Source of the DNA: a virus
Reading direction: 5' to 3' (one strand)
Length of the DNA: 64,000 nt
IMG/VR virus record: IMGVR_UViG_3300044859_002168
Coordinates: 25,854-89,853 of that record
Shown: positions 686 to 56,956 of the stretch, one piece after another
Numbering within the stretch: position 1 is the stretch's first letter
Layout: the number at the start of each line of letters is the position of its first letter
The notes under the pieces: model-generated
Told to the model about the DNA's origin: nothing
The model's input: the letters and a program-made list of their open reading frames with translations, nothing else
The model's database searches: none
Made by a program: the position numbers and the translations under genes

Positions 686-716
686 CAAAGATACGCGCAA
701 AATCCGAACTGCCAAA
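686..716 (-). promoter_or_regulatory. Bacteroidota-type promoter
   Basis: On the minus strand TTTG (713-716) is followed by exactly 19 bases and TATCTTTG (686-693), the full Bacteroidota consensus. It serves the gene starting at 662, giving a short leader of about 20 bases without a Shine-Dalgarno sequence. Confidence 0.8.
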
Positions 717-3540: not shown

Positions 3541-3572
3541 CAAATATAAAAAGAACTTTCCATATAAACAAA
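3541..3572 (-). promoter_or_regulatory. Bacteroidota-type promoter
   Basis: The minus strand has TTTG (3569-3572), 20 bases, then TATATTTG (3541-3548), matching TTTG/TAnnTTTG. The -33 element lies in the T-run of the preceding terminator, a very compact arrangement. Confidence 0.65.
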
Positions 3573-4878: not shown

Positions 4879-5307
4879 TCAATCTTTTTCAAAAATATTT
4901 TGTAAAATTGTTTTCAAATATACTCCTGTATCCATATTATTGACTTTATCCAAACCAAAATACCCACATTCAGTGTGTTCATGTCCATCTTGAGCGGTTT
5001 CAAGGTTAGGGTACATATACTCATGGGTATTCAACAAATAAACATACATCATACCTTTTATACTACCGTCAGTCTTTTTCTTTTTTGGTAGTATACCCAC
5101 AAAATCTAAATCGTAGTTATCTATGTTAATATCGGTCTCTTCGTAAAACTCTCTGTACGCAGCTTCTTTAGTTGATTCATCTTTTTCAACGTGTCCTGAA
5201 GGAATAGACCACATATTAGGGTAAGATGACTTACCGTTTCTTTTACACAATAAGCATTCACCGTTAACTTTAACGACCACACCACTCAACCTTTTATACT
5301 TTTCCAT
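4879..5307 (-). CDS. Nudix hydrolase
   Basis: This 142-residue protein contains the nudix box G-x5-E-x7-R-E-x2-E-E at residues 38-57 (G38, E44, R52, E53, E56, E57), which binds Mg2+ and hydrolyses a nucleoside diphosphate linked to another moiety. The usual glycine after EE-x is replaced by Asp (T58-D59). Length is typical of compact nudix enzymes. The substrate (oxidised dNTP, NAD, ADP-ribose, capped RNA) cannot be told. The gene starts at 5307, divergent from the DUF192 gene at 5322 with only 14 bp between the starts, an AT-rich TATTTATAAATA stretch. Confidence 0.9.
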   Translation of the reverse strand: MEKYKRLSGVVVKVNGECLLCKRNGKSSYPNMWSIPSGHVEKDESTKEAAYREFYEETDINIDNYDLDFVGILPKKKKTDGSIKGMMYVYLLNTHEYMYPNLETAQDGHEHTECGYFGLDKVNNMDTGVYLKTILQNIFEKD

Positions 5308-5321
5308 ATTTATAAATAATC

Positions 5322-8853: not shown

Positions 8854-8888
8854 GATTTTTTAAATAAAAATATCTACTTATAAATACT

Positions 8889-24761: not shown

Positions 24762-24769
24762 TATAAATA
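24762..24769 (-). promoter_or_regulatory. TATTTATA motif upstream of fibre operon
   Basis: On the minus strand TATTTATA lies 19 bp before the ATG of the first fibre gene; no Bacteroidota -7 box is present here. It may be a late promoter element read by a phage-modified polymerase. Confidence 0.4.
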
Positions 24770-29193: not shown

Positions 29194-30525
29194 TTATACT
29201 TCATCATCTTGTGAGAACTTATCCCACATACCAGTTTCCATTTCAGACCAACCATTAGATTCTAATGACTTTGGTGCGGATGCTCCTGTGTCCTTGAAGT
29301 TAATGAATTCCAAGTTTTCCATTGTTCCTAAACATTCAGGTAAACTTGTTAGTTGAGGGTTACTCATAACACCTAAAATATTCAAGTTGTTCAACTGACA
29401 AATATAATCAGGTACATTATTAATACAATTTACCAACACCAAGTGTTTAAGATTTTTGAACCTTGTAATTGAAGGTGGAATATTAATGATTGTACCAGCG
29501 TTGTCTCTATTTTTAATTTTGATTTGTTCCAAACTATCAGGTAATGAATTAAACAATTCTTCTAACCCATAAAGACCAACAAATTTACCAACAGAACCTG
29601 AACCAAAACCATCAATCTTCAAATCTTTACCAGAACCTGCCGTCAAACCTTTTGCAAATTCAGGTTTGAAGTATTGTTTAAGTTCCGCCATAGGACCGTT
29701 CAATAAGTCCACCAAATTAACACTTCTATCATCTTTATCCATGAATTGATTAGAAGGGAAGTGGAATTGATACCTTTCAATAGGTAATCCTGTTTGTGGT
29801 GATATCTTAGGGTCGTTTGGATTATACACAACATATAAAGGTCCATCCTTGATGTAGTTGTTAAACCAACTCAAACCAGGTGCGGAAGTACACCATCTTG
29901 TCTCTTGTTGATTACCACCATAGAAACATGCAGCTTCTTTACCTCTTTCACCTTTATCTTCAATTTTTACGACTTTCCATGTCTCACCATCATAACTTGA
30001 GTCAGCACCAGGGTGAACAGGAAGACTCTTTCTCTCAGCCTTTGTTGTTGTCGCCAACGTTAAATCAAAGTCCTTAACTGCATCATATAATGCATCTGTA
30101 CTTAATTTATTAATATCTCTCTGTTCAACAGGAAGTCTACCCTTGAATCTATTAAACTTTTTCAAGTCATCCGTAACCTTATAAAGGTCTTCCATGAAAC
30201 GGTCTTTCATGACCTTCACTTCTTGGTCATATCCATAATCACCAAATGCACGTTCTGTTGTTGGATTTAAATATTGTTTGATTAACCATGGTGTGTATTC
30301 ACCAACTTTAACCTTTTCCAAGTCTTCTTTAGTTGCATTGTCCAAATCAACATTATTCAACCTTGATGTTGGGTCGGCATTAATAAGTTTGTAAAGCTCC
30401 TCTTTTTTCATTTTTGGAGCAATAACCTTTTCCCCTTTTTTCTTTGGTTTTACAAATTTGTCCATCAAGACTTCAAATCTTGATTGTTCTAAAATAATCT
30501 CCTTTAATACAGACGTGAATTTCAT
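29194..30525 (-). CDS. Leucine-rich-repeat protein with WCT domain, paralogue 2
   Basis: The start is set at the ATG at 30525 (443 aa) rather than an ORF start at 30561, because the MKFTSVLKEIILEQSRFEVL beginning aligns with the start of paralogue 1 and TATTTATA lies 15 bp upstream of it. The central domain (T-R-W-C-T-S-A-P-G, G-P-L-Y-V-V) and the LRR tail match paralogue 1 closely, the last ~110 residues being nearly identical apart from conservative changes, while the N-terminal 150 residues have diverged. The tandem arrangement indicates local duplication followed by divergence of the N-terminal half. Confidence 0.75.
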   Translation of the reverse strand: MKFTSVLKEIILEQSRFEVLMDKFVKPKKKGEKVIAPKMKKEELYKLINADPTSRLNNVDLDNATKEDLEKVKVGEYTPWLIKQYLNPTTERAFGDYGYDQEVKVMKDRFMEDLYKVTDDLKKFNRFKGRLPVEQRDINKLSTDALYDAVKDFDLTLATTTKAERKSLPVHPGADSSYDGETWKVVKIEDKGERGKEAACFYGGNQQETRWCTSAPGLSWFNNYIKDGPLYVVYNPNDPKISPQTGLPIERYQFHFPSNQFMDKDDRSVNLVDLLNGPMAELKQYFKPEFAKGLTAGSGKDLKIDGFGSGSVGKFVGLYGLEELFNSLPDSLEQIKIKNRDNAGTIINIPPSITRFKNLKHLVLVNCINNVPDYICQLNNLNILGVMSNPQLTSLPECLGTMENLEFINFKDTGASAPKSLESNGWSEMETGMWDKFSQDDEV

Positions 30526-30540
30526 CTTTATATGTTTATC

Positions 30541-30548
30541 TATAAATA
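30541..30548 (-). promoter_or_regulatory. TATTTATA motif upstream of LRR paralogue 2
   Basis: The minus strand shows TATTTATA 15 bp before the ATG at 30525. Paralogue 1 has TATTTATT (29163-29170) at 19 bp. Confidence 0.35.
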
Positions 30549-36018: not shown

Positions 36019-37833
36019 TTATTGAGTTTTTTGGTTGTATCCAACGATATTCATCATTCTTGAAATCTGCTCATTCATAAGATTTGTTTTCTTATCTTCT
36101 TTAGATTCCAATTGTTTGAAAATCTTTTCGGATTTTTGAGAACCCTTTTTCAACTTCAAATCACCATCTTCAGTTGCTTCACCAGCTTGGTCTACAGGTT
36201 GAGGATATCTCTTATAAGATGCGTTCATTTGTTCTGCGCCATATACGTTATCCTTGAAGTTTTTATACATTTTTTCACCAAGTTCAGATGATACAACATT
36301 ACCTAAGTCGTTACCGTCTTTATCTTTTGTTGCGTTTCCTGTTTTTGAAGAACCTTTCAAGTTAGCTTCAATCCACTCATCATTTGGTTTGATTTCATCA
36401 TAAACCAAATTTGTTTGACCAGGGTAAGCAAACGCATCAATATACTCTTCAACAGCATCTGAAGGTTTGTAAGCCTTCTTGTCCATCTCTTTCATTTCAC
36501 CGTTACCTTTTGGGAAATGTTTAGGTTCTGTGGTGTATCCTTCAACATTACTATCTTTAGACCATTTTTCAAGTTTTTCCTTAGTCGCCTTTAAACTCTC
36601 TTGGTTTGTATTTTTGTTTTGTTTAGATACTTTCTTTAAGTCAGTTTGAGCAGCAATTTTGTTTTGTTCCATAACAAGTCTTTCAATTAATTCAATAACT
36701 TCAGATTCTGTCATTTGAACACTCTCGTGTTTAGCTCCCTTGAATCCTCCGATGTTTTTAGCAAAATTAGCCATCTTAACAACTTTACTGTCATCTGACT
36801 TCATTGCTTTATCAATACATTTTTTAGTAACTTCACCATCTTTATCCAAACCTTCTTTTTTACACCAATCACCGAATTTACCTGAAGTACCTTTCTTTTC
36901 CATTTTCTTGGTTGCTTTTTGAATGAACTTTTCTTCTTTCTTTTCTTCACCAATCCACATGTGTGACGCATACTCATCATCCTCAAATTCGTCAAAGTCA
37001 TCATGTTTCTTCATATCAACCTTCATTTCTTCTTTATCTTTCTTTGGGAATAATCTCGTATTTCTTTTTAGAGCATCTTTAACAAATTTAGATAAGAAAT
37101 CGTGGTCATCACTTTTCTCAGGGAAAACCTGACCTTCTTTAACTTCATAAGTTTTACCGTCAACTTCAAAAGAGGATTTACCTTCTTCTTTAGCTTTTGC
37201 TAACGCTCCTGAAAATGCGTTACCTTCTTCAGTTTCTCCTTGTTCTTCCATTCTTTTTTTACGTAATTTCAATGGTCCCCATTTGTCACGATATGCGTTA
37301 AATATTCTTCTACCACTATCACTTTGGTCTCCACTTTGAAACCACCTTTGATTGCCAGCCTTTTCAGTAAATGAATCATAATCATCAAACTCTTCCTCGT
37401 CATAATCAAAATCAAAACCACCAGTGTACTCTCTATCCCTTTCATCAGTCCAATACTCTTTATCACCTCTGTTTTGACCTAAAAATTTACTTTCATTGAA
37501 TTCTTTAGCAACTTTCTTTTCGTAATTGTATCCTACATTTTTAACCTTACCTACTTTTTTAGGACTGTCTGTTGAGAAATCTCCATAAGGTTCAACTTTT
37601 TCAATTTGGTCGTCACCCATAGTGTATTCTTTCATGTCTTTTTTAGTTCTTAATTTTTTGAAGTCAGCGGCGGTAATTTTACCTTTTGGCTCTGCAACAT
37701 CAATTTTGTGTTGTTTACCATGTAACTTAGATTTTTTTTCAATCTCAGATACAAGATTGTCAACTTTTTTATTTAAAGTTTCATCAAGGACTTGTTTTAC
37801 AACTTTATCCAAATATTTTTCAAATCTATCCAT
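36019..37833 (-). CDS. Probable virion or prohead-associated protein, 604 aa
   Basis: The protein is highly charged and apparently mostly disordered, with helical patches. Near residue 370 it contains Q-M-T-E-S-E-V-I-E-L-I-E-R-L, a short helix like those at the N-termini of other proteins here. About residues 320-365 hold S-G-K-F-G-D-W-C-K-K-E-G-L and A-N-F-A-K-N-I-G-G, a motif I recall from phage structural proteins (a K/C-rich module with two cysteines). Such composition suits a scaffold or internal head protein. TATTTATA lies 16 bp before the start; a hairpin terminator follows the stop. Confidence 0.6.
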   Translation of the reverse strand: MDRFEKYLDKVVKQVLDETLNKKVDNLVSEIEKKSKLHGKQHKIDVAEPKGKITAADFKKLRTKKDMKEYTMGDDQIEKVEPYGDFSTDSPKKVGKVKNVGYNYEKKVAKEFNESKFLGQNRGDKEYWTDERDREYTGGFDFDYDEEEFDDYDSFTEKAGNQRWFQSGDQSDSGRRIFNAYRDKWGPLKLRKKRMEEQGETEEGNAFSGALAKAKEEGKSSFEVDGKTYEVKEGQVFPEKSDDHDFLSKFVKDALKRNTRLFPKKDKEEMKVDMKKHDDFDEFEDDEYASHMWIGEEKKEEKFIQKATKKMEKKGTSGKFGDWCKKEGLDKDGEVTKKCIDKAMKSDDSKVVKMANFAKNIGGFKGAKHESVQMTESEVIELIERLVMEQNKIAAQTDLKKVSKQNKNTNQESLKATKEKLEKWSKDSNVEGYTTEPKHFPKGNGEMKEMDKKAYKPSDAVEEYIDAFAYPGQTNLVYDEIKPNDEWIEANLKGSSKTGNATKDKDGNDLGNVVSSELGEKMYKNFKDNVYGAEQMNASYKRYPQPVDQAGEATEDGDLKLKKGSQKSEKIFKQLESKEDKKTNLMNEQISRMMNIVGYNQKTQ

Positions 37834-37849
37834 AACGGTCGTTTTAATC

Positions 37850-37857
37850 TATAAATA
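37850..37857 (-). promoter_or_regulatory. TATTTATA motif upstream of the 604-aa gene
   Basis: Minus-strand TATTTATA, 16 bp before the ATG. A second copy (38882-38889) lies 15 bp before the 81-aa gene at 38866, inside the end of the preceding gene. Confidence 0.35.
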
Positions 37858-38620: not shown

Positions 38621-38866
38621 TTATGCGTTCTTTAATCTTGGCTCCCAATAACTTCTATTCATCCACATAAATTGATAGAATTCTCGGAACATTCTAAGTG
38701 TAATATCTTTAATATCACCCTCAAGTTTACCTCGTTTAATTTCTTTAGCAATCTTATCAATTAACTTATCTTCAAATTGTTTTAATGTATTACTCTCCAA
38801 GAAACTTTTCATCTCTTTTCTAATTAATACTTCAACTTCTTTTACCTCTGAACTAGTTAGTGCCAT
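38621..38866 (-). CDS. Conserved small helical phage protein, 81 aa
   Basis: An all-helical protein ending in F-Y-x-F-M-W-M-N-R-S-Y-W, a Trp/Tyr-rich motif I recall from conserved phage proteins of unknown role. It is 4 bp upstream of the 246-aa gene and 2 bp after the spanin-like gene; TATTTATA lies 15 bp upstream. Confidence 0.7.
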   Translation of the reverse strand: MALTSSEVKEVEVLIRKEMKSFLESNTLKQFEDKLIDKIAKEIKRGKLEGDIKDITLRMFREFYQFMWMNRSYWEPRLKNA

Positions 38867-38868
38867 AG

Positions 38869-39300
38869 TTATTTTGTTATGTATAAATAGGTTAATGTAC
38901 CAATTAAAACTCCTGAAATTATATTAGTGAAAGTTCTTTTAGCTTTAATTCTCTTTAATTCTTTTTGGGTAAACTTGAGTTCTTTTTGATAAATCTCTAT
39001 TTTCTTTCTTTCGTCTGATATAATCAAATTGTAATTCTCTTCTTTCAACTTCATTTTATCAATTACAGAATCTTTTAAAGAAACCATGTTCTCAAGTTCA
39101 ATAATATGTTGATTAGACATTTTCAATTGAGCAAATGCTGAATCCCCCCTCAATAAATCAATCACTATTTGTTTTGCCACAGGGACTGACAAAACTATCT
39201 TTTGTGTATCAGTATAACTCTTTGTAACGGTCTGCGAAAAACATGTCGAGCTCAACATGACCATACTTAGAAGCATCACTAATTTTTTTACTAAACTCAT
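38869..39300 (-). CDS. Exported coiled-coil protein with C-terminal membrane anchor, spanin-like
   Basis: The 143-residue protein starts with a signal sequence (K-K-L-V-M-L-L-S-M-V-M-L-S-S-T-C-F-S-Q), continues with a long coiled coil (about 60-120) and ends in a membrane segment (I-I-S-G-V-L-I-G-T-L-T-Y-L-Y). A cysteine at residue 20 could be lipidated, though the preceding S-S-T is not a classical lipobox. An N-terminal outer-membrane anchor plus a C-terminal inner-membrane helix is the plan of unimolecular spanins. It overlaps the 124-aa coiled-coil membrane gene upstream by 92 bp, recalling nested Rz/Rz1 pairs. The amidase is two genes upstream. Confidence 0.6.
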   Translation of the reverse strand: MSLVKKLVMLLSMVMLSSTCFSQTVTKSYTDTQKIVLSVPVAKQIVIDLLRGDSAFAQLKMSNQHIIELENMVSLKDSVIDKMKLKEENYNLIISDERKKIEIYQKELKFTQKELKRIKAKRTFTNIISGVLIGTLTYLYITK

Positions 39301-41731: not shown

Positions 41732-42532
41732 TTATAGATACTCAAACAGGTCGTTGGACTCATTACGGAGTTTACGCAATGCCTTTTCCTTGATTTGTCG
41801 TACACGTTCTTTTGTCAATTTGAAGTCATTACCAATATCCTCTAAAGTTCTTGTTTGACCTGACAAACCAAAGTAATCTTCAATAATAATTTTTTCTCTA
41901 TCATCCAAGATTCCCAAAATTTCTTTTAATTTCTCTTTGAGTATTTCCTTTGTGTCAAATACTGAGTCAGGTAATTCCGCATCAGGATTCTTAATCAAAT
42001 CCAATAACGTATCACCTTCTTCATTTAGAGGTGCATCATAATTTATTGTCGTTGGGAGATTAACAAATTTATCAGGTAAATCCGCTCCGTTTTTTTCAAT
42101 TTCTTTCTTGGCCTTCTGAAGTTCTTGTACGACGTTAACCGGAAGTCGGATAGTACGAGCATTTTCATTCAAAGATTGAAGAATTGATTGACGAATCCAC
42201 CAAACTGCGTATGAAATAAAACGTAGTTCTTTAGTCCAATCAAAATTCTTAACCGCCTTTAATAGTCCCAAATTACCCTCAGCAATCAAATCTGATAATT
42301 CAAGACCTTGGTTTTGATACTGTTTAGCAACAGTTATAACAAATCTCAAATTACCAATTAAAAGTTCCTGTTCAATTTGTTTCTTTTCTGATTCTGTAAT
42401 ATTATCCGATAGGATTTTTTGAGCTAATGTACGCTCTCTCTCAACTGTCATAACTTTAATCTTGCGAATATCTTTAAGATATGTCGCAATTTCTTCTTGA
42501 TTAATTGGGATTGTAGATAGTTTGTCTTTCAT
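41732..42532 (-). CDS. Sigma-70 family RNA polymerase sigma factor, RpoD-like
   Basis: The 266-residue protein has sigma region 2 (about 59-128: N-L-R-F-V-I-T-V-A-K-Q-Y-Q, D-L-I-A-E-G-N-L-G-L, F-I-S-Y-A-V-W-W-I-R-Q-S-I), region 3 and region 4 (about 205-262: L-D-D-R-E-K, L-E-D-I-G, L-T-K-E-R-V-R-Q-I-K-E-K-A-L). It lacks region 1.1, as do Bacteroidota RpoD proteins, which it resembles strongly. It would guide host polymerase to phage promoters, a candidate reader of the TATTTATA class. It lies 1 bp downstream of the 178-aa gene and just before the lysis cluster. Confidence 0.93.
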   Translation of the reverse strand: MKDKLSTIPINQEEIATYLKDIRKIKVMTVERERTLAQKILSDNITESEKKQIEQELLIGNLRFVITVAKQYQNQGLELSDLIAEGNLGLLKAVKNFDWTKELRFISYAVWWIRQSILQSLNENARTIRLPVNVVQELQKAKKEIEKNGADLPDKFVNLPTTINYDAPLNEEGDTLLDLIKNPDAELPDSVFDTKEILKEKLKEILGILDDREKIIIEDYFGLSGQTRTLEDIGNDFKLTKERVRQIKEKALRKLRNESNDLFEYL

Positions 42533-42533
42533 G

Positions 42534-43070
42534 TTATTTAGATAGTTTTTGTAGTAATTTTTTTTCGTTTTCAGTTAAAGAGTTAAGACCAAATTCTGTG
42601 ATTTTATCCAATAGGTCATCCAAAGATAGTGTATTCTTTTTAGATTTTTGAATAATTGTTTTAATTTCATCCTCATCATCATCGTCATCATCCTCTTCCA
42701 TCATGTCCATCATCTCCTGTTGTAGTTTTTCAAAACCACTATACATTTTAACAGTATCGGGTTGAACATTGGAGTTTTCAATCTCTTGTTCTAAATCCGT
42801 TAAATGACTTACAAAGTCATTATCGGCAAGTATGGTAACATTTTCCGAAGGTGAGACTATAACCATATCAACTTGATTATTTAAAACATCTTTAATGTAA
42901 CTAGTGATATAGTCTAAATCCCAGTCAGATTCAAAATGTGATATAATAAAAGTATCTGATTTTGAAATTTTCAACTCTTTTGAGCTAACCATAGGTGCGA
43001 GACAAATATTAATTGCCCTAACTTTATCACTGTCTTGGAAATCACCAAACATTGTAATTAAATAATTCAT
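42534..43070 (-). CDS. Hypothetical protein with Bacteroidota-type C-terminal motif, 178 aa
   Basis: The N-terminal 110 residues look like an alpha/beta domain; an Asp/Glu run follows, then a C-terminal helix pair S-L-D-D-L-L-D-K-I-T-E-F-G-L-x-S-L-T-E-N-E-K-K-L-L. This ending resembles the C-terminal motif of many Bacteroidota proteins (for example rhomboid-type proteins). It lies 1 bp from the sigma-factor gene and may be its partner. A Bacteroidota-type promoter lies at 43089. Confidence 0.7.
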   Translation of the reverse strand: MNYLITMFGDFQDSDKVRAINICLAPMVSSKELKISKSDTFIISHFESDWDLDYITSYIKDVLNNQVDMVIVSPSENVTILADNDFVSHLTDLEQEIENSNVQPDTVKMYSGFEKLQQEMMDMMEEDDDDDDEDEIKTIIQKSKKNTLSLDDLLDKITEFGLNSLTENEKKLLQKLSK

Positions 43071-43088: not shown

Positions 43089-43121
43089 CAAAGGTAATAC
43101 CAAAACGTCACTATTTCCAAA
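43089..43121 (-). promoter_or_regulatory. Bacteroidota-type promoter
   Basis: Minus-strand TTTG, 21 bases, then TACCTTTG (43089-43096), about 18 bp before the ATG at 43070. It would drive the 178-aa gene, the sigma factor and perhaps the lysis cluster. Confidence 0.6.
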
Positions 43122-43122
43122 C

Positions 43123-43650
43123 CTACTTGTGAAAAATCCAACAATTATCCATAATCATCTTGTCAGGAAACTTTTCATCTACCGCCCTAACTACACCTGG
43201 CCAGTCATTTTCATAGTCATGTCCGGCCAACAATCCACCCTTCTTAACTTTTGGTAACCAAAGTTCAATGTCCTGTTTGACAGATTCATAGGTATGTGTT
43301 AAATCTATAAAAACAACATCAAGACTTTCATCTTCAAATTGATTCACAACTTCAGATGAAAGTCCACGGATAGATTTGTAACTTCTTTCCCCCATGTTTT
43401 TTTTGAAAACTTCATAGATATCAACTTGGGTTGCCAATTGGTGTGTTGATGTTAATTCGTTGGGAGAACCTTTCCACGAATCAATTATAATTACATTCCT
43501 ATCAACAGCATAGTCTACCAAATATGATGACGATTTACCTAACCATGCGCCAAGTTCAACAATAGTTCCACCTTCAGGACAGTTCTCAATCAGGTAATCA
43601 TATGTTGTTAAATGGTTGAACCAACCTTGTATATCTTTGTAAGTTTTCAT
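43123..43650 (-). CDS. Class I SAM-dependent methyltransferase (Methyltransf_24 type)
   Basis: Residues 29-44 carry the cofactor motif T-I-V-E-L-G-A-W-L-G-K-S, residues 55-59 the acidic I-I-I-D-S, and the middle has V-V-F-I-D-L-T-H-T-Y-E-S-V, then G-G-L-L-A-G-H-D-Y. This pattern fits Methyltransf_24/TylF-like enzymes, which often act on sugars or small molecules rather than DNA. The target is unknown; surface-glycan modification would match the glycan genes at the right edge. It overlaps the SbcC-like gene by 1 bp. Confidence 0.85.
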   Translation of the reverse strand: MKTYKDIQGWFNHLTTYDYLIENCPEGGTIVELGAWLGKSSSYLVDYAVDRNVIIIDSWKGSPNELTSTHQLATQVDIYEVFKKNMGERSYKSIRGLSSEVVNQFEDESLDVVFIDLTHTYESVKQDIELWLPKVKKGGLLAGHDYENDWPGVVRAVDEKFPDKMIMDNCWIFHK

Positions 43651-46022
43651 TATTGTATTACTTTAGATATATTTTCTTCTTTCTTAATCCTCACAACACT
43701 ATCCGCCCAATTAGTAACCAAGGGATTGTGAGTAATAACAAATATTTTTTCAAAGTATTCTTTAATCTTACCGAAGAATTCACCAACAAGTTCAAGGTTG
43801 TCGTTTGAAATTTTTCCAAACACCTCATCCCAAACAATGATATTTGGTTTTGGTAATGAACATATCTTGCTCAACACGGCTCTCAGTGCCATGCTCGCAA
43901 TTGTTCTTTCATAACCTGAACCTGATGACATCAACTTTTCAATACCTGTTGAATTGTCAATCATGATAAACTCAACTTCATTCTTGTCGTTGATTCTAAT
44001 CTCCAAATTAAAGTAACAAGAATCTTGTAACAATCTTTGAAGTTCTTGATTAATCAATGGCATCATGGTTTTCATGATGATTTTTGAAATACCGTTCTTA
44101 CCAAACAATTCCAAGTAGATTTTATAAATCTTTTCCTTCTCAAATTCAACTTTAATCTTTTCAATTATTTCAGAATTTGTTTGAATCTTGGCCGTTGCTG
44201 AATTAATATCATTGCTGTTATTGGTTTGAGCCCTTTCAAGTTCTCTCTTTCGGTTAATCAATTCATCAATACGTAATTGAGCCTTAATAATCTTTGCCTC
44301 AAGTTCTTGGTTCTTCTTAATCTTTTCTTGAGACTCAATATATCTTTTAAGCACATCTTGTTTTTTCTCAAGTTTAAGTTTTTCAGCTTCTAATCCAACC
44401 TCAAATTTTTCCTTGATAAGTTTGTTACGTTCATACTCATCAAAGTCTTTTTTGAGTTGTGTATAGGATTTTTCTTTGGAGTCAAGGTCTTTCCATTGTT
44501 TTGATAACTTATCAACCTTCTTCTCCCAATCACTTAATTCATCAATCTTTTTCTTTGTCAACGCGGCCTCCATCAATTTGATTCCACAGTGCTCACATTG
44601 AATTCCATCTCCAAACTTCTTAACCAATTCTTCAATATCTTCAACTTTTTTCTGAGCAAGAATGAGTTCACCGTTTGTGGTTTTCATCCCATCTTTAATC
44701 TCATCATGTTTGTCCTCATGATAGTATGATGTGGGTTCCTTAATAATAACACCATTGATTTGGATTTTAATTTTTTCACATTCCCTTTCTGAGTTTGAAA
44801 TTTCACTCTGTATGTTGATTGGATTTAAACCCAAAAGCTCTTTGTCTATGTCAGAGTATTTCGCATTTAACAAACCGTCTTTATATTCTTGGCCAGTTGA
44901 TAATCTTTCGGTAACATCAACAATTTCCTTTTCAACATCAACATTAGTCTGTTGAAGGGTGATGATTTTTTCTTTCAACAAATCAATATCACCCTTTAAT
45001 GTCTCAGTATTGTAGACGTTAGACATCATACTTTTGGTAAAGGTAGAAACAATTTCTTTACCCGTTTCTTCCTTTATTTTCAAGAATTCAAGACCCATAA
45101 ACCTACTCAGGACTTGTCCACGAGCAGTTGGTTTAGAATCAATGAGTTCCTCCAAATTAGTAGATGTTGTTAAAATAGTCATCAAAAAGTCATCCATCTC
45201 ACCAATAGAATTCTTAATAAACTTCTCAGTTTCTCTTCTTTGTTCTCCTGTGAAGTTTTGGTAAGAACCATCCCCCAATTTTTTTAAGAAGTCCAATTCA
45301 GTTTTGACATTCCAATCACCAGACTTAGACTTCTTTCTTTCAATTGTACGAGATACCACATACTCATCACCATCAATAACGATGTCACCCCTAACCTGTA
45401 CTTTGTTAGAGTCACGAAACCTATTGAAAATTTCTTCCGATTTCTGTGTTTTAGTTGTGGTGTTAAAGAATAGGAACATCAATAAGTCCACAGTTAAAAC
45501 TGTTTTACCACCAAAGTTCGGTGGGTCTGATTCCACAACAGTTATACCGTTACACTTCTCAAAGTCCAACACTTGATTGTCACCATAACTCAAAAAGTTA
45601 GAGAAGTGAATCTTCTTAATATACCATTTTTGAAATGGTGTAACCTCAACATTCTGTTGAATTAACTTATTCTCAACCGCCTCATCAATCTTTACGATGT
45701 CATCATACTTGTCACCACTACCCTTACTCTCCAAGAAAGATTTCATCAACTCACGTTGATAGTTCTTATCCATAATGTTAAATGAAACATCCACAGTTTG
45801 TTGTCCTGTTTCAGTTTGTTTTGACTTGGTAATGACATTAACATTTAATGAATTGTATTTCTTTTGGAAATAAGTCTTCACACTCTTGATTCTCTCTTGA
45901 GTGAGGTTTTCAGGTGCGTCTTCCCAAACAACCTGAACGTAGGGATTTTCGTATTCTTCTAATTTTATTCTTTCTGACATAGTAGTTAAATCGTAATTAA
46001 TTGGTGGATTAAATAAGTCCAT
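43650..46022 (-). CDS. SbcC/Rad50-like recombination ATPase (T4 gp46-like)
   Basis: This 790-residue protein has an ATP-binding segment N-F-G-G-K-T at 169-174, long coiled-coil arms, a zinc hook C476-E-H-C479, an ABC signature S-S-G-S-G-Y-E at 699-705, Walker B I-I-V-W-D-E at 730-735 and an H-loop V-I-T-H at 764-767. With the SbcD-like nuclease at 47389 it forms the complex that resects DNA ends for recombination-dependent replication. T4 gp46 (~560 aa) begins directly with the ATPase; here about 130 extra residues come first, an unusual added domain. An ATG at codon 15 is an alternative start. Confidence 0.93.
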   Translation of the reverse strand: MDLFNPPINYDLTTMSERIKLEEYENPYVQVVWEDAPENLTQERIKSVKTYFQKKYNSLNVNVITKSKQTETGQQTVDVSFNIMDKNYQRELMKSFLESKGSGDKYDDIVKIDEAVENKLIQQNVEVTPFQKWYIKKIHFSNFLSYGDNQVLDFEKCNGITVVESDPPNFGGKTVLTVDLLMFLFFNTTTKTQKSEEIFNRFRDSNKVQVRGDIVIDGDEYVVSRTIERKKSKSGDWNVKTELDFLKKLGDGSYQNFTGEQRRETEKFIKNSIGEMDDFLMTILTTSTNLEELIDSKPTARGQVLSRFMGLEFLKIKEETGKEIVSTFTKSMMSNVYNTETLKGDIDLLKEKIITLQQTNVDVEKEIVDVTERLSTGQEYKDGLLNAKYSDIDKELLGLNPINIQSEISNSERECEKIKIQINGVIIKEPTSYYHEDKHDEIKDGMKTTNGELILAQKKVEDIEELVKKFGDGIQCEHCGIKLMEAALTKKKIDELSDWEKKVDKLSKQWKDLDSKEKSYTQLKKDFDEYERNKLIKEKFEVGLEAEKLKLEKKQDVLKRYIESQEKIKKNQELEAKIIKAQLRIDELINRKRELERAQTNNSNDINSATAKIQTNSEIIEKIKVEFEKEKIYKIYLELFGKNGISKIIMKTMMPLINQELQRLLQDSCYFNLEIRINDKNEVEFIMIDNSTGIEKLMSSGSGYERTIASMALRAVLSKICSLPKPNIIVWDEVFGKISNDNLELVGEFFGKIKEYFEKIFVITHNPLVTNWADSVVRIKKEENISKVIQ

Positions 46023-46537: not shown

Positions 46538-47389
46538 TTATTTATAAAGTTTATTGTCCAAGTTAGAACCTTTTAAATATAAGGCTTTTTGGTCTTGTTG
46601 TAACTTGTTTAGTTCGTTAATTTTACTTTTTAATTCAGAAATTTCAACATCTCTATCAATTACTTGTTGCCGAATTTTTTGTAAGGTATCTTGAAGTTTA
46701 TTTGTGTTATCAGGTTTGTCTGTTTTTTGTTTAAGTTCATCTAAAGAATGTCTAAGTTCATCTAGTTCTTCAACCTTTTTAGACATTCTATTTTGGAAAA
46801 TATTCTCGTTTTCAGTGGTTATAGTGGAAAATTTTTGTCTTAATGACTCAATTTCACTCTCTTTAGTGGAAAATTTTTGTCTAAGTTCATCTAGTTCTAA
46901 ACTACTTTTAGACATTTCAGTTTCCAACTGTTGTATTTTTGACAACAGTTCGTTTACCTCTTTATCATCAGTCACATAGACTTCCCGTTCAACTACTCGG
47001 TCTACCGGAATTTCTTTGATGACTTCCTTGATAACAACTTTCTCAACCGGTATTTCTTTAGTAATTTCAACAATCTTTTCAACCACTTTTTCAACCGGAA
47101 CTTCTTTGATGATTTCTTTTTCAACTATAATTTCAATTATTTTTTCAACCTCTCTAATAACCTCAACGGGCACTTCCACTCGTATTTCTTTTATTACCTC
47201 TTTTTCCACCCATTTTTCTTGAACTCCGCCCGTTTTACTCAACAATCCATACTTTTCAATATGGTAACCTTGTTTGAATGAATCCTTTATTAAAGTATCA
47301 ATATCCAAACCATTTAGAGCACAGAAGGATTCTAAGTCTTTTAACTCTTCCTTAGTTAATACTATCCCCTTCTCTACCCCAAAACTCAT
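46538..47389 (-). CDS. Charged coiled-coil protein with V-x-K-E-V repeats, 283 aa
   Basis: Residues 60-145 repeat short Val/Ile-Glu-Lys units (K-E-V-P-V-E-K-V-V-E-K-I-V) that are probably an extended beta or coiled rod; residues 150-270 form a long heptad coiled coil with Leu spacing. Similar EKEV-rich proteins occur in large phages. A structural or tethering role is inferred. It shares one base with the SbcD-like gene (47389). Confidence 0.65.
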   Translation of the reverse strand: MSFGVEKGIVLTKEELKDLESFCALNGLDIDTLIKDSFKQGYHIEKYGLLSKTGGVQEKWVEKEVIKEIRVEVPVEVIREVEKIIEIIVEKEIIKEVPVEKVVEKIVEITKEIPVEKVVIKEVIKEIPVDRVVEREVYVTDDKEVNELLSKIQQLETEMSKSSLELDELRQKFSTKESEIESLRQKFSTITTENENIFQNRMSKKVEELDELRHSLDELKQKTDKPDNTNKLQDTLQKIRQQVIDRDVEISELKSKINELNKLQQDQKALYLKGSNLDNKLYK

Positions 47390-48168
47390 TATACGTTTGC
47401 CAATTTTTCCTTACCTGTCTCTAAGTCCTCATAAGAAGATATCTTGAAAGACAAGAAAGGTTTTGGGTTTGGTAAATCAATGAAAATGTATTTGTCCTCC
47501 AAAACATCATAAATACCGTACCCATGTTTGTCTAACGTTTCCCCAAAGTTTTGTTGAATCGTTGAACCAACCATGTAAGCTTTCTTTTTGCCGGGAATAT
47601 CAAATACCTGACGTTTATGGATGTCACCACATAGAACCAAATCCAAACCTGAGAAATTATTACTATCAAACCCATCTTCAAATTTGTAACCAATGTCTGT
47701 TGAAAGCCCGATAACAGGTCCATGAAATAATCCAATCTTAACCCTATCAGTTTGAGGAATCTCAGGTTTAATGTTGTGGTCCATAAGCGAATAAACCACC
47801 CACTCAATGTTCTCATCTTCGTAAGAACCTCTGTTTTTATAGTAGACAATGTTTTCATTTTTAAGTGAATCAATAATTGGTGACAAAGCATCCAACCTTG
47901 ATTGGTTATTTTCAAGGAAGTCGTGGTTACCAATAATTAGAACGGTTTTAGTAATTGATGCACATTCGGTTAAAATCCAAGCAACAAACTCTACCAATTC
48001 AGGTGTCATTTGATTCTTAGAATGTACCAAATCACCAGTGAAAACAATACGGTCAGGTTTCAACGCTTTCCACTCACTTAAAGCTTGTGTCAAGATTTGT
48101 TTATACAAGTCGTGGTCTTTGAATAGACGCACGTGTAAATCCGAAAAGTGAACTAATCTTTTTATCAT
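47389..48168 (-). CDS. SbcD/Mre11-like nuclease (T4 gp47-like)
   Basis: A 259-residue calcineurin-like phosphoesterase with H-F-S-D-L-H near the start, V-F-T-G-D-L-V-H, I-I-G-N-H-D, L-F-H-G-P and L-C-G-D-I-H, the five metal-binding motifs of Mre11/SbcD. I chose the ATG at 48168, which overlaps the previous stop as ATGA, instead of an earlier one at 48204. Together with the SbcC-like ATPase it processes DNA ends. Confidence 0.93.
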   Translation of the reverse strand: MIKRLVHFSDLHVRLFKDHDLYKQILTQALSEWKALKPDRIVFTGDLVHSKNQMTPELVEFVAWILTECASITKTVLIIGNHDFLENNQSRLDALSPIIDSLKNENIVYYKNRGSYEDENIEWVVYSLMDHNIKPEIPQTDRVKIGLFHGPVIGLSTDIGYKFEDGFDSNNFSGLDLVLCGDIHKRQVFDIPGKKKAYMVGSTIQQNFGETLDKHGYGIYDVLEDKYIFIDLPNPKPFLSFKISSYEDLETGKEKLANV

Positions 48169-48371
48169 TCGGGCATTGCAAATTCTGAGTTTATGTGACC
48201 ACAACTGTCACACTTATAGATTGGGAACGGAACAATTCCGTCGTTCATTGAACCAGTCATAAGTTTAGACACTTTTTTGAATTGGAATGCTTCAACAAAA
48301 GTGGTGTTTTCACACTGTTCACAATTAAGTGTTTCAGCGTCTTTTAGATTTATAGTTAATTTTTGTTCCAT
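48165..48371 (-). CDS. Zinc-ribbon protein, 68 aa
   Basis: Two cysteine pairs, C17-x2-C20 and C54-x2-C57, with V-P-F-P-I-Y-K-C before the second, form a zinc ribbon of a type seen in T4-like and Bacteroidota phages; the middle K-V-S-K-L is also typical. The start at 48371 follows the preceding stop after 4 bp. Possibly a late-gene or recombination accessory factor; function unknown. It shares ATGA with the SbcD-like gene. Confidence 0.75.
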   Translation of the reverse strand: MEQKLTINLKDAETLNCEQCENTTFVEAFQFKKVSKLMTGSMNDGIVPFPIYKCDSCGHINSEFAMPE

Positions 48372-49283: not shown

Positions 49284-50144
49284 TTACTTACCAAGTATAG
49301 TTTTCATATCCATGTTCATAATAGTTGACATAATATCTTTTGGAACTCGGAACTCTTGATAGGTCTCATCGTCTTTGAGTAATACTACAATACATCCCAA
49401 TAGTTTGATGTTCTCATATTTTGTCCCTTCCAACATCTTAACCAATAACTTACCGTAAAAAGGTAGTTGAAGATAGTAGTGACCCAATGCGTTGTTTGGG
49501 TATGAATCAAACGGAGCGTACATTGATTTTGTAAACCTATTGGTTTCAAAGTTTTTTTCTTTGTTTGTCTTCCAATCCGTAATTAACAAACCAAACTCAT
49601 CACCTTTAGCATTCACAGTCAACCATACCTTATCGGGTTGTCCTGTATAACCCAACTCAGGATGACCCAATACCATTTCCGTATCTAACAAAGCCAAACC
49701 TCGTTGTTCTGACAAATCAAGGTAATGTTTACCAGCACGAATCATGGAGTCACTTTTCGCTTGAGCAAAAATGTCACACTCAAAAACAGGTTGACGAACT
49801 TCCTTATAACCCCCATTTCGGGCAATGGTCTCAGTTTCCAAATGAAAGTGGGTTCTACTTCCCAAGTTGGTGGATTCAAGCCCAAGTTGTTTCCACTCTT
49901 CCATCAAACGTTCGGCTTCAATGTAGTCACCACCCGACTTTTTAAATGCAGCCTCTTCAGTTGGGAACTCATCATAAAACTTCTTCAACACCTTTGATAC
50001 TGATGGAAAGTTATCACGGACGTTACCATCCAAATCTTTCATCAAGTATTTGTGCTCATCTTCAAAGAACTCTAATCCAAATTCTTCTCGTTTCTTCTCA
50101 ATAATCAAACGGATGTCTTCCGCAGTCTCGTTTAGGTTTATCAT
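49284..50144 (-). CDS. PD-(D/E)XK nuclease (RecB/Cas4-like)
   Basis: The 286-residue protein has L-G-S-R-T-H-F-H-L-E near 94-103, G-Y-T-G-Q-P-D171-K-V near 165-173 and L-I-T-D190-W-K192, i.e. the H, D and D-x-K pattern of RecB-like nucleases. It would resect or process DNA, alongside SbcCD and the resolvase. No iron-sulfur cysteine cluster is visible, so it is closer to phage RecB/lambda-exo-like proteins than to Cas4. It overlaps the primase gene by 4 bp (ATGA). Confidence 0.85.
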   Translation of the reverse strand: MINLNETAEDIRLIIEKKREEFGLEFFEDEHKYLMKDLDGNVRDNFPSVSKVLKKFYDEFPTEEAAFKKSGGDYIEAERLMEEWKQLGLESTNLGSRTHFHLETETIARNGGYKEVRQPVFECDIFAQAKSDSMIRAGKHYLDLSEQRGLALLDTEMVLGHPELGYTGQPDKVWLTVNAKGDEFGLLITDWKTNKEKNFETNRFTKSMYAPFDSYPNNALGHYYLQLPFYGKLLVKMLEGTKYENIKLLGCIVVLLKDDETYQEFRVPKDIMSTIMNMDMKTILGK

Positions 50145-51055
50145 TTTATTTCGTAGTAGTATTCGTCAATCTTGCCTTTTAAGTCACATACGTCCTTATC
50201 CTTCGGCAATTTAAGGATTTTAATTCTATTATACAAGCGTCCACCGTTTAAGTTGTGATAGACTCTAAGTGCGTTTTCCCAAGCGTCACCATCCAAACAA
50301 ATGTGGATATCACCCTGAACTTTTTCATATAGGGTGGTAAACAAATTCTCAGATAACATCTTTCCTAACATAGGGATTGGGTTGGGTAAAAAGAAACCGT
50401 CAAATACACCTTCACAAAGATACACATCTTTTGTCCAATCTATTCTACTTTCATTAAAAATAATTTCATCTTTTGGAACTGATGGGTTTTTATATTTCAT
50501 TTTCTTCGGTGTCCACGCTCGGGCAACAAAGTAATTCAGTTTACCTTCCATGTCATATGACGGAACAATAATCCTGTAGGCGTAATCACCGGTGACTGTA
50601 TATCCAATGTCGTATTTCTGAATTATATCATCAGTGATACCACGAGAATAAAGATAGGTAATCGCCTCACGGTGTGGTATGAACCTTATGTTAGAGTCTT
50701 CAAACTTTTTATAACCTTCAGGTAGTCGTGCCCATACTTTTGGTTTTTCTCTAACAAACTCTTCAGGTGGACGGATAAGTTCGTATGTCTTCTTTTGTTG
50801 TTTGGTCCCAAAATGGTCAAGTAACTTACCGAGGGGTCCTTGGGTTCCGTTAGTTTCGGAACAAGCCCAACATTTGTAAACCCCTCGGATGTAATTGATT
50901 TCCAAGTTACCCTTACCATCAGACTCAAGACCCTTTTCTTGGGCACATACGGGACAGTCAAAAGATATCTGTCCCTTTGACTCATAGTGTTGTTTCTCAT
51001 TACCCAATACGTCAATGAGAAGTTCTACTATTACGTCGTTTTCTTGAGTCATCAT
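50141..51055 (-). CDS. DNA primase (zinc finger plus Toprim)
   Basis: Residues 34-65 carry a zinc ribbon C34-P-V-C37 and C62-W-A-C65; residues 211-256 the Toprim core with E215 (L-C-E-G-V-F-D-G) and D254/D256 (C-L-D-G-D). This is the layout of DnaG/T7-type primases, here a stand-alone 304-residue protein without a helicase domain. It makes RNA primers for replication. A Bacteroidota-type promoter ends only a few bases before its ATG-ATG start, so the message would be nearly leaderless. Confidence 0.9.
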   Translation of the reverse strand: MMTQENDVIVELLIDVLGNEKQHYESKGQISFDCPVCAQEKGLESDGKGNLEINYIRGVYKCWACSETNGTQGPLGKLLDHFGTKQQKKTYELIRPPEEFVREKPKVWARLPEGYKKFEDSNIRFIPHREAITYLYSRGITDDIIQKYDIGYTVTGDYAYRIIVPSYDMEGKLNYFVARAWTPKKMKYKNPSVPKDEIIFNESRIDWTKDVYLCEGVFDGFFLPNPIPMLGKMLSENLFTTLYEKVQGDIHICLDGDAWENALRVYHNLNGGRLYNRIKILKLPKDKDVCDLKGKIDEYYYEIK

Positions 51056-51056
51056 T

Positions 51057-51088
51057 CAAAGATAGTAAAGTTTACCATCAATTCCAAA
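51057..51088 (-). promoter_or_regulatory. Bacteroidota-type promoter of primase
   Basis: Minus-strand TTTG (51085-51088), 20 bases, TATCTTTG (51057-51064), directly adjoining the first ATG at 51055. Confidence 0.65.
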
Positions 51089-51458
51089 TAATATTTTTGA
51101 TTTTGAAAGAACCGTAATGTTTTACGTTCAAACCAACTAGCTCACAAAATGACTCTACAGAATCTTCAAGTTTCCTTCTGAAGAATTTATTCAGTTTAAC
51201 CTTGGATATACCTGATTTAGTGAGAATATCATTATTCAACCATTCAGATTTTCCACCTACACTAGCATAAATTTTACCTTGAAAAATAACATCTACTTCG
51301 TGAAAGTAAGGGGCCCAACTGTAATCAGTTTTGTACTTACGAATTTTTTTGAATTTAAGTACACCGTCAAGTTGATTATTAGAAACCAAAACACCTTTTT
51401 TACTCAATTTTTGGACTATGGTGTTGAGTTTTGGGTCTTTGATGAGTTCCTTTTCCAT
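51078..51458 (-). CDS. Hypothetical protein, 126 aa
   Basis: No family recognised. Basic, with Trp- and Tyr-containing strands (Y-S-W-A-P-Y-F-H-E-V-D-V-I-F) and a basic C-terminal half, so nucleic-acid binding is possible. It is transcribed towards the primase, 22 bp away, from its own promoter. Confidence 0.65.
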   Translation of the reverse strand: MEKELIKDPKLNTIVQKLSKKGVLVSNNQLDGVLKFKKIRKYKTDYSWAPYFHEVDVIFQGKIYASVGGKSEWLNNDILTKSGISKVKLNKFFRRKLEDSVESFCELVGLNVKHYGSFKIKNIIWN

Positions 51459-51462
51459 ACCT

Positions 51463-51494
51463 CAAAGGTATGACAAGTTTTTTAAACTACCAAA
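51463..51494 (-). promoter_or_regulatory. Bacteroidota-type promoter
   Basis: Minus-strand TTTG (51491-51494), 20 bases, TACCTTTG (51463-51470), four bases before the ATG at 51458. The -33 element lies inside the end of the resolvase gene. Confidence 0.65.
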
Positions 51495-54300: not shown

Positions 54301-56292
54301 TTATACCCCACCACCAGCTTGATTAGCCCCAAGAGTGTGTTGCATTATTGCAGTTCCTTCACTACTTACAACAGCACAACATATACATCCTGATATAGAC
54401 TGATTGGTTGTTGATACTGTAATATTTTGTTTAAGGACAGTTGCACATCCCTGAACAATTCTTGGGAGAGTAACTTCCATATCAGATACTGATGTACCAC
54501 TCACAACATCGTTATAACCCATTGTAATTGTTGTATAGGTTGAAATATCAACGGTTTGTGTTTGAGTATTTGGTGAACAATATGGTCTATTAGTTGTTGA
54601 TGAACTTGATACTGGTGTGGTTGTTAATGTTGCGTTGTTTTTCTTAACTACATTTGTATAATCAATTATACCGTCACCAGGTCTCTGAACCAATTGGTCA
54701 TTATTAATTAATAAATCAAATGTAATTTGTGTACCTTGTGGGATTGGTGGTATAATATTAACCTTCCAAGTCATTGACTCTTGATTTACTCCAATTGGAT
54801 TTGATAGTTTTTGAATTCCAATACTATAAGTTGTTGTCAATCCTTGGTTTGCCACAGTTGTTACTTGTGAGTATTCGTCACCGTTACTGTCTTTAACAAC
54901 CACACTATAACTTCCACCACATAAATTGGAGAAGATATTTGAACTTTGGAATGTTGTTCCATTGTTAATTGAATATTGGTATGGTGCGGTTCCACCTATT
55001 GGATTTATAAGGATTGAACCGTTACAAACATTTTCACAGTTTGCCAAACTTGTTAAGATTTGAGCTGATAAGAACACGGCAGTTGAACAAGATTCATCCT
55101 GAACACTTACTGTTGCAGGGATTTCAGAACCAACTGAATACCAACCACTCAATGGTGGTACTGTTGGTGATTGTGAGTTAAGTGTTCCACCATATGCTGT
55201 GTATCCACTCGTTACCCACACACCTTGATTTGGGTTCCAAATAACATTATATCCTGAACCATTAGTCCAAGATGGTTTGCCATTAACAACACCATTTGGT
55301 GTAAACTCAATTTGAACAGGAACTTGTTCTTGCCAAATAATATTAAAACACAAAGTAGGATAAACTGGTGAAGGTGTTGGTGTCATGGTTGGTGTTAATG
55401 TTGGTGTTGGAGTTGGTGACGGAACTATCATTGAACATGTAGTTGTTGCCGTAAAATCTTTATAGTAATCAACAACAGTTACCGTATAGTCTCCACCACC
55501 TAAATTAAATAGGTATGGTGTTTTTTGTCCACCCTCCCAAGTAATATTATAAGGAGCAGTTCCACCTGTTATTCTCAAATACAATTTTCCATCGTAACTT
55601 GTTGAAGACGATGGGTTGGTTCCATAACATTCAACCCCAAGTGGAAACAATGTAATTACATCACAATTGTTTGCCAATTTTGTGAAGGATTGATTACTTG
55701 GAGTAATCGTTGGAGTAGGTGTTAAAGTTGGTGTGGGTGTTGGTGTCTTTGTATTTGTCGGTGTTGGCGTAAGAGTATTTGTTGCCGTTATTGAAGGTGT
55801 CGGTGTTGGTGTTACACAAGACGTTGACGCTGGTACCCCCAATTTAACAACACCGTTGTATGGCTTTGTGTAATCAAAAATAATTGCGGTTTCTTCTCCG
55901 TTCCCTTCTTGGAACACTCCACAACAATCATAATAATAATATTGTCCTGTGGTATAACCTGAACCACAAACTATTGATGTTGGTGTGGGTGTGTGGTTTG
56001 GAGTTCTTGTTGGGAATGGACTTGGGGTAAAAGAAGGTTCAGGAGTATCCTCACAAGGATAAAGTAATATACCCTCAAAATTAATATAACCTGTTCCACC
56101 ATTTTCAATATAAACATCCTCAGAATCTGAGTAAGCACCGCTTTCTTGACAACCACAAACACTGTAAAAATTACCAGGTTGGACTGTTGCACTTTGTAAT
56201 GTTGTACCATCGTTGCAGGAGTATGAGTAAAAAATCTGAGGTAAATCAGATTCGTTCCACACCATCCATCTAATACAAGTAGTACAAGCCAT
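54301..56292 (-). CDS. Thr-Pro-linker protein with cysteine-rich domains (663 aa)
   Basis: The start at ATG 56292 shares a base with the preceding stop (TGATG). Domains alternate with Thr-Pro linkers: a Cys-rich N-terminal module (1-90), a TP linker, another module, longer linkers around residues 160-200 and 290-310, then two Ig-like beta modules (about 310-620) containing S-V-V-V-K-D-S-N-G-D-E and P-I-G-G-T-A-P-Y-x-Y-S-I-N-N-G-T-T. It is probably an extended adhesin or tail fibre. Confidence 0.75.
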   Translation of the reverse strand: MACTTCIRWMVWNESDLPQIFYSYSCNDGTTLQSATVQPGNFYSVCGCQESGAYSDSEDVYIENGGTGYINFEGILLYPCEDTPEPSFTPSPFPTRTPNHTPTPTSIVCGSGYTTGQYYYYDCCGVFQEGNGEETAIIFDYTKPYNGVVKLGVPASTSCVTPTPTPSITATNTLTPTPTNTKTPTPTPTLTPTPTITPSNQSFTKLANNCDVITLFPLGVECYGTNPSSSTSYDGKLYLRITGGTAPYNITWEGGQKTPYLFNLGGGDYTVTVVDYYKDFTATTTCSMIVPSPTPTPTLTPTMTPTPSPVYPTLCFNIIWQEQVPVQIEFTPNGVVNGKPSWTNGSGYNVIWNPNQGVWVTSGYTAYGGTLNSQSPTVPPLSGWYSVGSEIPATVSVQDESCSTAVFLSAQILTSLANCENVCNGSILINPIGGTAPYQYSINNGTTFQSSNIFSNLCGGSYSVVVKDSNGDEYSQVTTVANQGLTTTYSIGIQKLSNPIGVNQESMTWKVNIIPPIPQGTQITFDLLINNDQLVQRPGDGIIDYTNVVKKNNATLTTTPVSSSSTTNRPYCSPNTQTQTVDISTYTTITMGYNDVVSGTSVSDMEVTLPRIVQGCATVLKQNITVSTTNQSISGCICCAVVSSEGTAIMQHTLGANQAGGGV

Positions 56293-56939
56293 CAGGGACA
56301 AATAATAAAGTCAATTATGATTCCTGTTGAATCTATTTGTACCGCATATGTACTAGCACCAAATGTCATTTTTCTCCACCTATTAATTTGATTTACCGGA
56401 TTGTATAAAATACCTCCAAGATTTGTTGAATAAACCTCTACACCCAATACAGGTATTGTTGGTGTATCAACATAATAAGTATAGTATTGAGTTACCAAAA
56501 GTGAATCATCACAAACACCTGAATAACCAACATATAGATTAGCACCTATGGTGTGTCCATATACAAGTGGTGTTGGAGTTGGGGTTGGCGTTTTAGTTGG
56601 TGTTGGAGTTGGTGATGCAGCAATACTTGTTGATACCGATGGAGTTACTGTTGGAGTAACAGTTTTTGTTGGCGTGGGTGTTGGAGTCTTTGAAGACGTA
56701 GGTGTCATTGTTGGTGTTGGGGTAGGTGTTATCGCTACCGTGTGGTAAATAATACAACCAGCAACATCTACAATTTTGATTGTAAAATTTTCTGTGGCAT
56801 ATGTGTCATCAACTTCAAACACATACGGTGCATTTGCAACAGTTGAGACATAGGTACAACTACCACTTAAAGCATCACAAACATACACCTCAAAAGGAGT
56901 GTTAGCTGTAATTGTAGTTATTTCTATATTAACTGGCAT
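56292..56939 (-). CDS. Thr-Pro-linker protein, 215 aa
   Basis: The N-terminal module (1-75: F-E-V-Y-V-C-D...[13 protein letters not shown]) is clearly homologous to residues 1-75 of the next upstream gene's product. A TP linker (76-130) separates it from a C-terminal beta module. It overlaps the 663-aa gene by one base. The shared module suggests a common mode of attachment. Confidence 0.75.
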
Positions 56940-56956
56940 CAGTTATAAATAATATT

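Follow-up and report, generated by a model that had tools for sequence, protein, structure and literature searches.

An RpoD-like sigma factor with a shortened region 3, a possible middle tier of transcription in T4-superfamily jumbo phages of Bacteroidota

The textbook example of a stepwise takeover of the host RNA polymerase comes from T4-like phages, and the late promoter of T4 gp55 is TATAAATA. In PMC2988020, gp55 is described as the T4 late sigma factor. According to Iyer and co-workers (PMC7824862), sigma factors of a minimal and an RpoD-like type are encoded by every group 2 jumbo phage, these phages likely use the host polymerase, and group 2.2 includes phages of Bacteroidetes. An RpoD-like factor having already been reported there, its presence in such phages is not new. 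Relative to the portion of that account considered here, the promoter classes, the deletion in region 3 and the putative middle-gene role come from the present analysis; deletion, promoter class and division of labour are, in our reading, what it adds. A likeness to T4 MotA and AsiA may also be drawn, partly on the basis of PMC7824862, in that an early-made phage factor would redirect the host polymerase to replication genes; MotA/AsiA works through host sigma70, whereas a separate sigma factor is proposed here. The likeness to T4 gp55 consists of a gp55-like protein and a promoter without a -35 box on head and tail genes, and the differences are that the gp55-like gene is distinct from the RpoD-like sigma gene and that the promoter motif, TATTTATA, lies on the sense strand.

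The window, meaning the whole 64,000-nucleotide stretch that was analysed, comprises bases 25854-89853 of a fragmentary IMG/VR record of 89,853 bases. At 41732..42532 its minus strand carries an intact 266-codon open reading frame for a sigma70-family, RpoD-like factor of 266 aa whose region 3 is shorter by some 20 aa. Pfam finds both region 2 (Sigma70_r2, PF04542, 58.9 bits against a cut-off of 24) and region 4 (Sigma70_r4, PF04545, 54.0 bits against 24.1), while region 1.2 (PF00140) scores 21.4 bits, just under its cut-off of 22. The best NCBIfam match is the RpoD model, although partial and, at 188.5 bits, far under the cut-off of 572. The protein gave no row for phrog_234, the T4 gp55 family, and aligned to T4 gp55 by hhalign only at E 0.11 (probability 0.6). 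Like Bacteroidota RpoD (sigma-ABfr), it has no region 1.1 and shares FISYAVWW(I/V)(R/K)QSI in region 2.3 and ERVRQIKEKA in region 4.2; unlike it, the phage protein has the shortened region 3, K in place of R at 241, and region 1.2 residues of its own. The resemblance of the region 2 and 4 motifs to Bacteroidota RpoD, put forward in the earlier note on this DNA, is thus borne out by the reading frame, both Pfam domains and the Bacteroidota identity of the nearest cellular relatives. The deletion in region 3, the gene next upstream, the gp55-like factor and the third class of promoter described below go beyond that note.

No region 3 family is among the Pfam matches, and the full domain is absent. 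Taking region 3 length as the number of residues between two fixed motifs that flank it, we found 89 aa in all 18 phage sigma factors included in the tree and in 61 of 63 analysed later (two not measurable), as compared with 108-110 aa in 77 of 78 host sigma factors (one not measurable). Two structure models of moderate confidence (pLDDT 70 and 73) were used, and in the one for the sigma factor (pLDDT 70) region 3 is a single long helix. Regions 2.3, 2.4 and 4.2, those that contact promoters, rank among the most conserved parts of the phage protein, and LTKERVRQI, the helix of region 4 that reads the -35 box, is kept in 62 of the 63 distinct phage proteins. That the protein is a promoter-recognising factor for the host core RNA polymerase is a proposal we judge together with the three-tier reading given below, the case for the pair being evenly poised.

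Cellular loci nearest to the window's sigma factor, judged on the best 80 of 586 from 84,980 species genomes, come nearly all from Bacteroidota or close phyla at 42-47% identity, with one of those 80 labelled Polynucleobacter. Long matches in the phage and plasmid records of other groups are mostly 24-41% identical. Much closer are the phage relatives: 23 loci at 64-97% identity in a first scan and, in a profile scan of IMG/VR, at least 80 loci, the best 80 being 68-94% identical; further relatives counted in that scan may include sigma factors of other kinds. The family is frequently encountered in IMG/VR. A tree of 58 proteins places 18 distinct phage sigma factors in one clade (support 100/100) outside Bacteroidota RpoD, itself a separate group (97/93). 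The phage clade falls on the Bacteroidota side of the tree split (100/99), with a stem 2.2 changes per column long that drew a long-branch warning from the tree tool; because of that warning, a single old acquisition is likely rather than certain. The separate clade is, we think, probably an old one. At 18 columns that split Bacteroidota from six canonical-type sigma factors, the phage proteins agree with Bacteroidota at 12, with the canonical type at three (T127, I128 and L252) and with neither at three. The earlier note had called the protein a copy of a Bacteroidota primary sigma factor and had named deep separation from Bacteroidota RpoD as what would speak against this. The Bacteroidota affinity stands, by the 12 diagnostic columns; the notion of a copy fares worse, given a separate clade and a fixed deletion in region 3. 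The separation is indeed deep, although among cellular proteins it is still those of Bacteroidota that come closest. As judged from these comparisons, the phage sigma does not look like a recent capture or a simple copy of the primary sigma.

Directly upstream of the sigma gene, at 42534..43070 on the minus strand, a partner gene encodes 178 aa with an acidic stretch and a C-terminal tail of the Bacteroidota DUF6576 type. A partner-type reading frame (162-202 aa) precedes the sigma gene in 63 of 63 distinct loci, a pattern search recognising its tail in 56 and inspection by eye in the remaining seven, and the protein may be a sigma partner or an anti-sigma factor. SbcC-, SbcD-, exonuclease- and primase-like genes make up the neighbourhood, among them, all on the minus strand, the SbcC-like (gp46-like) gene at 43650..46022, the SbcD-like (gp47-like) gene at 47389..48204 and the DNA primase (gp61-like) gene at 50141..51055. 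Near 52 kb of the window the GC skew changes sign, with genes lying mostly on the minus strand to both sides.

Upstream of the sigma operon lies a host-type promoter, here P1, of the form TAHHTTTG or, more fully, TTTG-N19/20-TAHHTTTG, which agrees with the Flavobacterium johnsoniae promoter as reported in PMC6847099. Its copy in the window, TTTG-N21-TACCTTTG, occupies 43089..43121 on the minus strand. TAHHTTTG was found upstream of the operon in five of five genomes and in 56 of 63 distinct loci, which upholds the earlier claim of host-type promoters, and the fuller motif is sharply spaced in phage DNA and hence real; the TTTG -33 box (N18-21) accompanies only 19 of the 63 operons. Of the two classes treated below, P3 occurs in six of the 63 operon leaders and P2 in none. 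Further P1-type sites on the minus strand of the window precede the genes at 51078-51458 (site 51463..51494), 3229-3522 (3541..3572) and 183-662 (686..716). Another, at the primase gene (51057..51088, minus strand), ends 1 nt before the ATG, so the true start of that gene may be downstream.

The phages that carry this sigma factor belong to the T4 superfamily. Matches to gp20 portal, gp23 capsid, terminase and sheath were obtained in all four large sigma-bearing contigs, G001, G002, G012 and G013 (282-322 kb), the sheath exceeding its cut-off in two; the window's own 90-kb record, a fragment, gave no match to these head and tail markers. All four large contigs encode, besides the RpoD-like sigma, a gp55-like protein of 249-260 aa. 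It matches the PHROG late sigma family phrog_234 in 11 of 24 members (best E 9e-4), is weakly homologous to T4 gp55 (hhalign probability 16.5), has no match to region 4 and, when its model was searched with Foldseek, placed sigma factors on top (best E 0.007, none below E 0.001); we treat it as a late-sigma candidate. The 90-kb fragment yielded no gp55-like gene (best E 0.31). An ECF-type sigma factor of 181 aa is encoded in that record outside the window, at 7745-8290 of the record, and was not seen in 11 related records, mostly fragments. The RNA polymerase beta-prime family PF04998 was found in none of ten records, several of them fragments, in keeping, for the multisubunit type only, with the earlier suggestion that the phage has no polymerase of its own. 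No protein exceeded the cut-off for the gp45 clamp family PF09116 in five records. Searches with 162 cluster profiles gave no match to MotA or AsiA; since the same search missed gp32 and gp43, absence of MotA, AsiA, gp33 or gp45 from its results is not evidence.

Head and tail genes are preceded by TATTTATA, which has no -35 box and is designated P3. It is enriched on the coding strand ahead of genes (z of 11, 22 and 29 in three records), which establishes it as a real motif, one of the two that the earlier note names. Among the papers that a literature search listed, none was found to describe TATTTATA promoters, or the sigma factor of a Bacteroidota phage together with its promoters, although this is a weak negative. 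Some 14-17 nt upstream of P3 lies a nearly A/T-only stretch with no -35 box, and P3 often comes right after a terminator-like U tract, as judged by eye. Because PHROGs gave almost nothing for the genes that carry it, naming a function for one of ten proteins (the portal), T4 orthologues were assigned with our own profiles among 82 T4 proteins, the weakest match used having E 3e-5. For the orthologues of T4 genes 13, 17, 18, 19, 20, 21, 23 and 25, P3 was found in 31 of 32 gene-by-genome cells, 24 times in the gene's own leader and seven times at the head of its operon, and its distance is nearly unchanged between many orthologues. Among tail-tube leaders, P3 is present in 61 of 62, TAHHTTTG in four and P2 in none of 62; in most of 15 such leaders a second, similar block, approximately AGTAAATAGAAAAATTTTT, precedes TATTTATA. 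In G001 and G002, the spacing of TATTTATA from the ATG has two favoured ranges, about -21 to -24 and -11 to -12; the latter would give leaderless or nearly leaderless mRNAs.

P3 sites within the window, all on the minus strand, precede genes at 7861-8853 (site 8879..8886), 29194-30525 (30541..30548; three of four orthologues have P3 at nearly equal distance), 36019-37833 (37850..37857), 38621-38866 (38882..38889) and 56292-56939 (56944..56951, 4 nt from the ATG, a leaderless-type spacing), as well as the collagen-like tail fibre gene at 21179-24742 (24762..24769). Two overlapping P3 sites in opposite orientation lie at 5307..5318, between the divergent genes 4879-5307 (minus) and 5322-5672 (plus). 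Three consecutive collagen-like tail fibre genes (1099-1187 aa) fill 14480-24742, a stretch of about 50% G+C as compared with about 35% for the phage. At 7490-7861 a small protein matches the PHROG annotation "starvation-inducible transcriptional regulator".

The third class, P2, is TTGACA-N17-TATATT, found by an unbiased dyad count as TTTGAC-N17/18-TATAYTT in the five records from which the first counts also came. Over 1.33 Mb of phage DNA, 35 sites scoring at least 17 have N18 after TTTGAC, as compared with 3-14 sites at each other spacing from 10 to 26. P2 precedes four of four SSB/gp32 orthologues and four of four copies of a gene of 146-156 aa, with diverged spacers. Seven P2 genes were searched in Pfam, which named gp32, DNA_pol_B, HSP70, IMPDH and cyclophilin and left two without a match; for IMPDH and cyclophilin, P2 was seen in one genome each. 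The DNA polymerase gene has P2 in four of four genomes at a relaxed score only and in two of four by pattern, with P3 beside it. Among gp32-like leaders from contigs beyond the discovery set, relaxed P2 is present in 43 of 44 distinct cases (strict P2 in 29 of 44), and in 23 of 24 when restricted to leaders under 80% identity; none of the 44 has relaxed P2 at any other spacing from 13 to 23.

The majority form of 23 representative gp32 sites, TTGAC(A in 17, T in 6)-N17 (in 21 of 23)-TATA(T/A)T, is close to a canonical sigma70 promoter, with the canonical -35 box and 17-bp spacer that a sigma factor with intact region 4.2 would need. E. coli promoters differ from the Bacteroidetes consensus, according to PMC6847099. 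What chiefly sets P2 apart from P1 is GAC in the -35 box together with a relaxed last base; TTTG at the host spacing and TAHHTTT are kept. The G that completes the host -7 box is present in seven of the 23 representative sites, and among the 44 gp32 leaders six have a full P1 match and 13 have TATTTAT[ATC], all of which implies that the host sigma might read P2.

Promoter class and gene function match imperfectly: a gp41-like helicase has P3 in three of four genomes, against a purely late role, the DNA polymerase is mixed, and the 146-aa gene with P2 sits among head genes. As a gauge of chance matches, strand counts for the class patterns were 248 sense against 104 reverse complement (late) and 123 against 60 (host) in 622 leaders, and 37 against 16 for P2 in 668 leaders, a control that is not clean because divergent genes share leaders. 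An excess of the k-mer ATAAATA in unassigned leaders proved to be an artefact of removing TATTTATA from one strand only.

The named phages that match the portal well include Flavobacterium phage vB_FspM_immuto and Microcystis phage Mel-JY01, which resemble the sigma-bearing phages in their T4-superfamily head genes (portal 38-39% identity), an SSB orthologue, a gp55-like protein (E 6e-16 in immuto, 2e-13 in Mel-JY01) and TATTTATA before several virion genes. They differ in that an RpoD-like sigma was not found (best E 0.46 and 0.2, respectively). P3 lies within 75 nt of six of the nine virion genes examined in immuto (portal, terminase, sheath, tube, hub and tape, and not capsid, scaffold or baseplate assembly); in Mel-JY01 the same holds for terminase, portal and tube, but not for sheath, capsid or three further genes of that region. 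P3 therefore does not need the RpoD-like sigma. The P2 peak is missing, with no N18 site in immuto, one in Mel-JY01 and none at the SSB gene of either; the four large sigma-bearing contigs have 6-15 such sites, the next highest spacing having 2-5. On this small sample of two relatives with other recorded hosts, P2 therefore goes with the RpoD-like sigma. P1 with the -33 TTTG at N19/20 is likewise sharp in all four large contigs and peakless in both relatives, so that the phage sigma could equally read P1. Eight genomes of the host phylum, Bacteroidota, showed no P2 spacing peak (seven of 59 matches at N18); the P1 positive control in the same genomes was weak, N19 having 22 matches and N18 17 where seven other spacings averaged 15, and the host absence of P2 therefore carries little weight. 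A further upstream motif, CGTATATT(T), is common to immuto and Mel-JY01 and may extend a -7 box of the TATATTTG type.

In the reading we prefer, for and against which the arguments are about equally strong, transcription in Bacteroidota jumbo phages of the T4 superfamily would run in three tiers, the phage sigma serving the middle one. The host sigma would read P1, TAHHTTTG, and the sigma operon would be made early. The phage sigma, with RpoD-like domains 2 and 4 and most of domain 3 gone, would then bind host core and read the -35-dependent P2 on SSB/gp32, DNA polymerase, chaperone and nucleotide genes, possibly together with P1 sites that have the -33 TTTG, thus filling the role of T4 MotA and AsiA. 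Lastly, the gp55-like factor would read TATTTATA on head and tail genes. A sigma factor without domain 3 should depend on the -35 box, and P2 fits that expectation. Core binding, the assignment of sigma factors to promoters and the timing we infer from sequence. Directly observed there are the protein with its domains and deletion, its relatives and the tree they form, and three classes of promoter, including how far these are conserved on orthologues and which relatives have or lack them. For the origin of this arrangement we can offer only a tentative suggestion: an old relative of Bacteroidota RpoD, having lost most of domain 3, may have replaced the T4 middle-promoter scheme as a dedicated sigma that reads P2, a code largely left by the host, thereby opening a private channel between host-read early and gp55-read late promoters.

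In a rival reading, in line with the idea of the earlier note, the phage sigma reads the P1 promoters of host RpoD and thereby keeps early-type genes on, or makes them better competitors, when the host sigma is limiting. The agreement with Bacteroidota RpoD at two-thirds of the diagnostic columns speaks for this, as does the restriction of sharp -33-box P1 to the sigma-bearing contigs, but the host sigma must read P1 first because the sigma operon itself has TAHHTTTG, the -33 box is found at fewer than a third of the sigma operons, and P2, peakless in the sigma-lacking relatives, is left unexplained; we consider it doubtful, if still a serious candidate. If instead P2 were simply a strong host promoter read by the host sigma, and the targets of the phage sigma minor or different, the host-spaced TTTG, the TAHHTTT and the full P1 matches of some gp32 leaders would follow easily. 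Yet no TTTGAC among 44 leaders (the five discovery records) has TAHHTTTG 14-34 nt further on, and the P2 peak is absent from the two relatives and, for what that control is worth, from the Bacteroidota genomes, which makes this explanation unlikely.

Much less probable again is that the phage protein mainly takes core from the host sigma and reads few or no promoters. A missing region 3 could weaken promoter opening, and early expression would suit a takeover factor, but a pure competitor would not need promoter-contacting regions, so the strong conservation of 2.3, 2.4 and 4.2 counts against it. Least credible is a late role for the RpoD-like sigma as reader of TATTTATA, a template on which the earlier note had proposed trying it: sigma and motif are both abundant in the same phages, and the sigma gene adjoins gp46/47-like genes much as T4 gp55 lies about 3 kb from 47, but P3 lacks a -35 box although region 4 of the phage sigma is intact, and TATTTATA persists on virion genes of immuto and Mel-JY01, which have a gp55-like protein and no RpoD-like sigma. 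These two relatives largely refute the late role, and for the same reason TATTTATA is unlikely to be a promoter of this factor.

If the three-tier reading is true, the middle step of takeover in these phages would be run by a real sigma factor and not by remodelling of the host sigma. A sigma factor without most of domain 3 would then be a natural test of that domain's job, since its promoters should be strictly -35 dependent, and the phages would offer a ready-made second pair of promoter and sigma factor for Bacteroidota, whose promoter code differs from that of E. coli.
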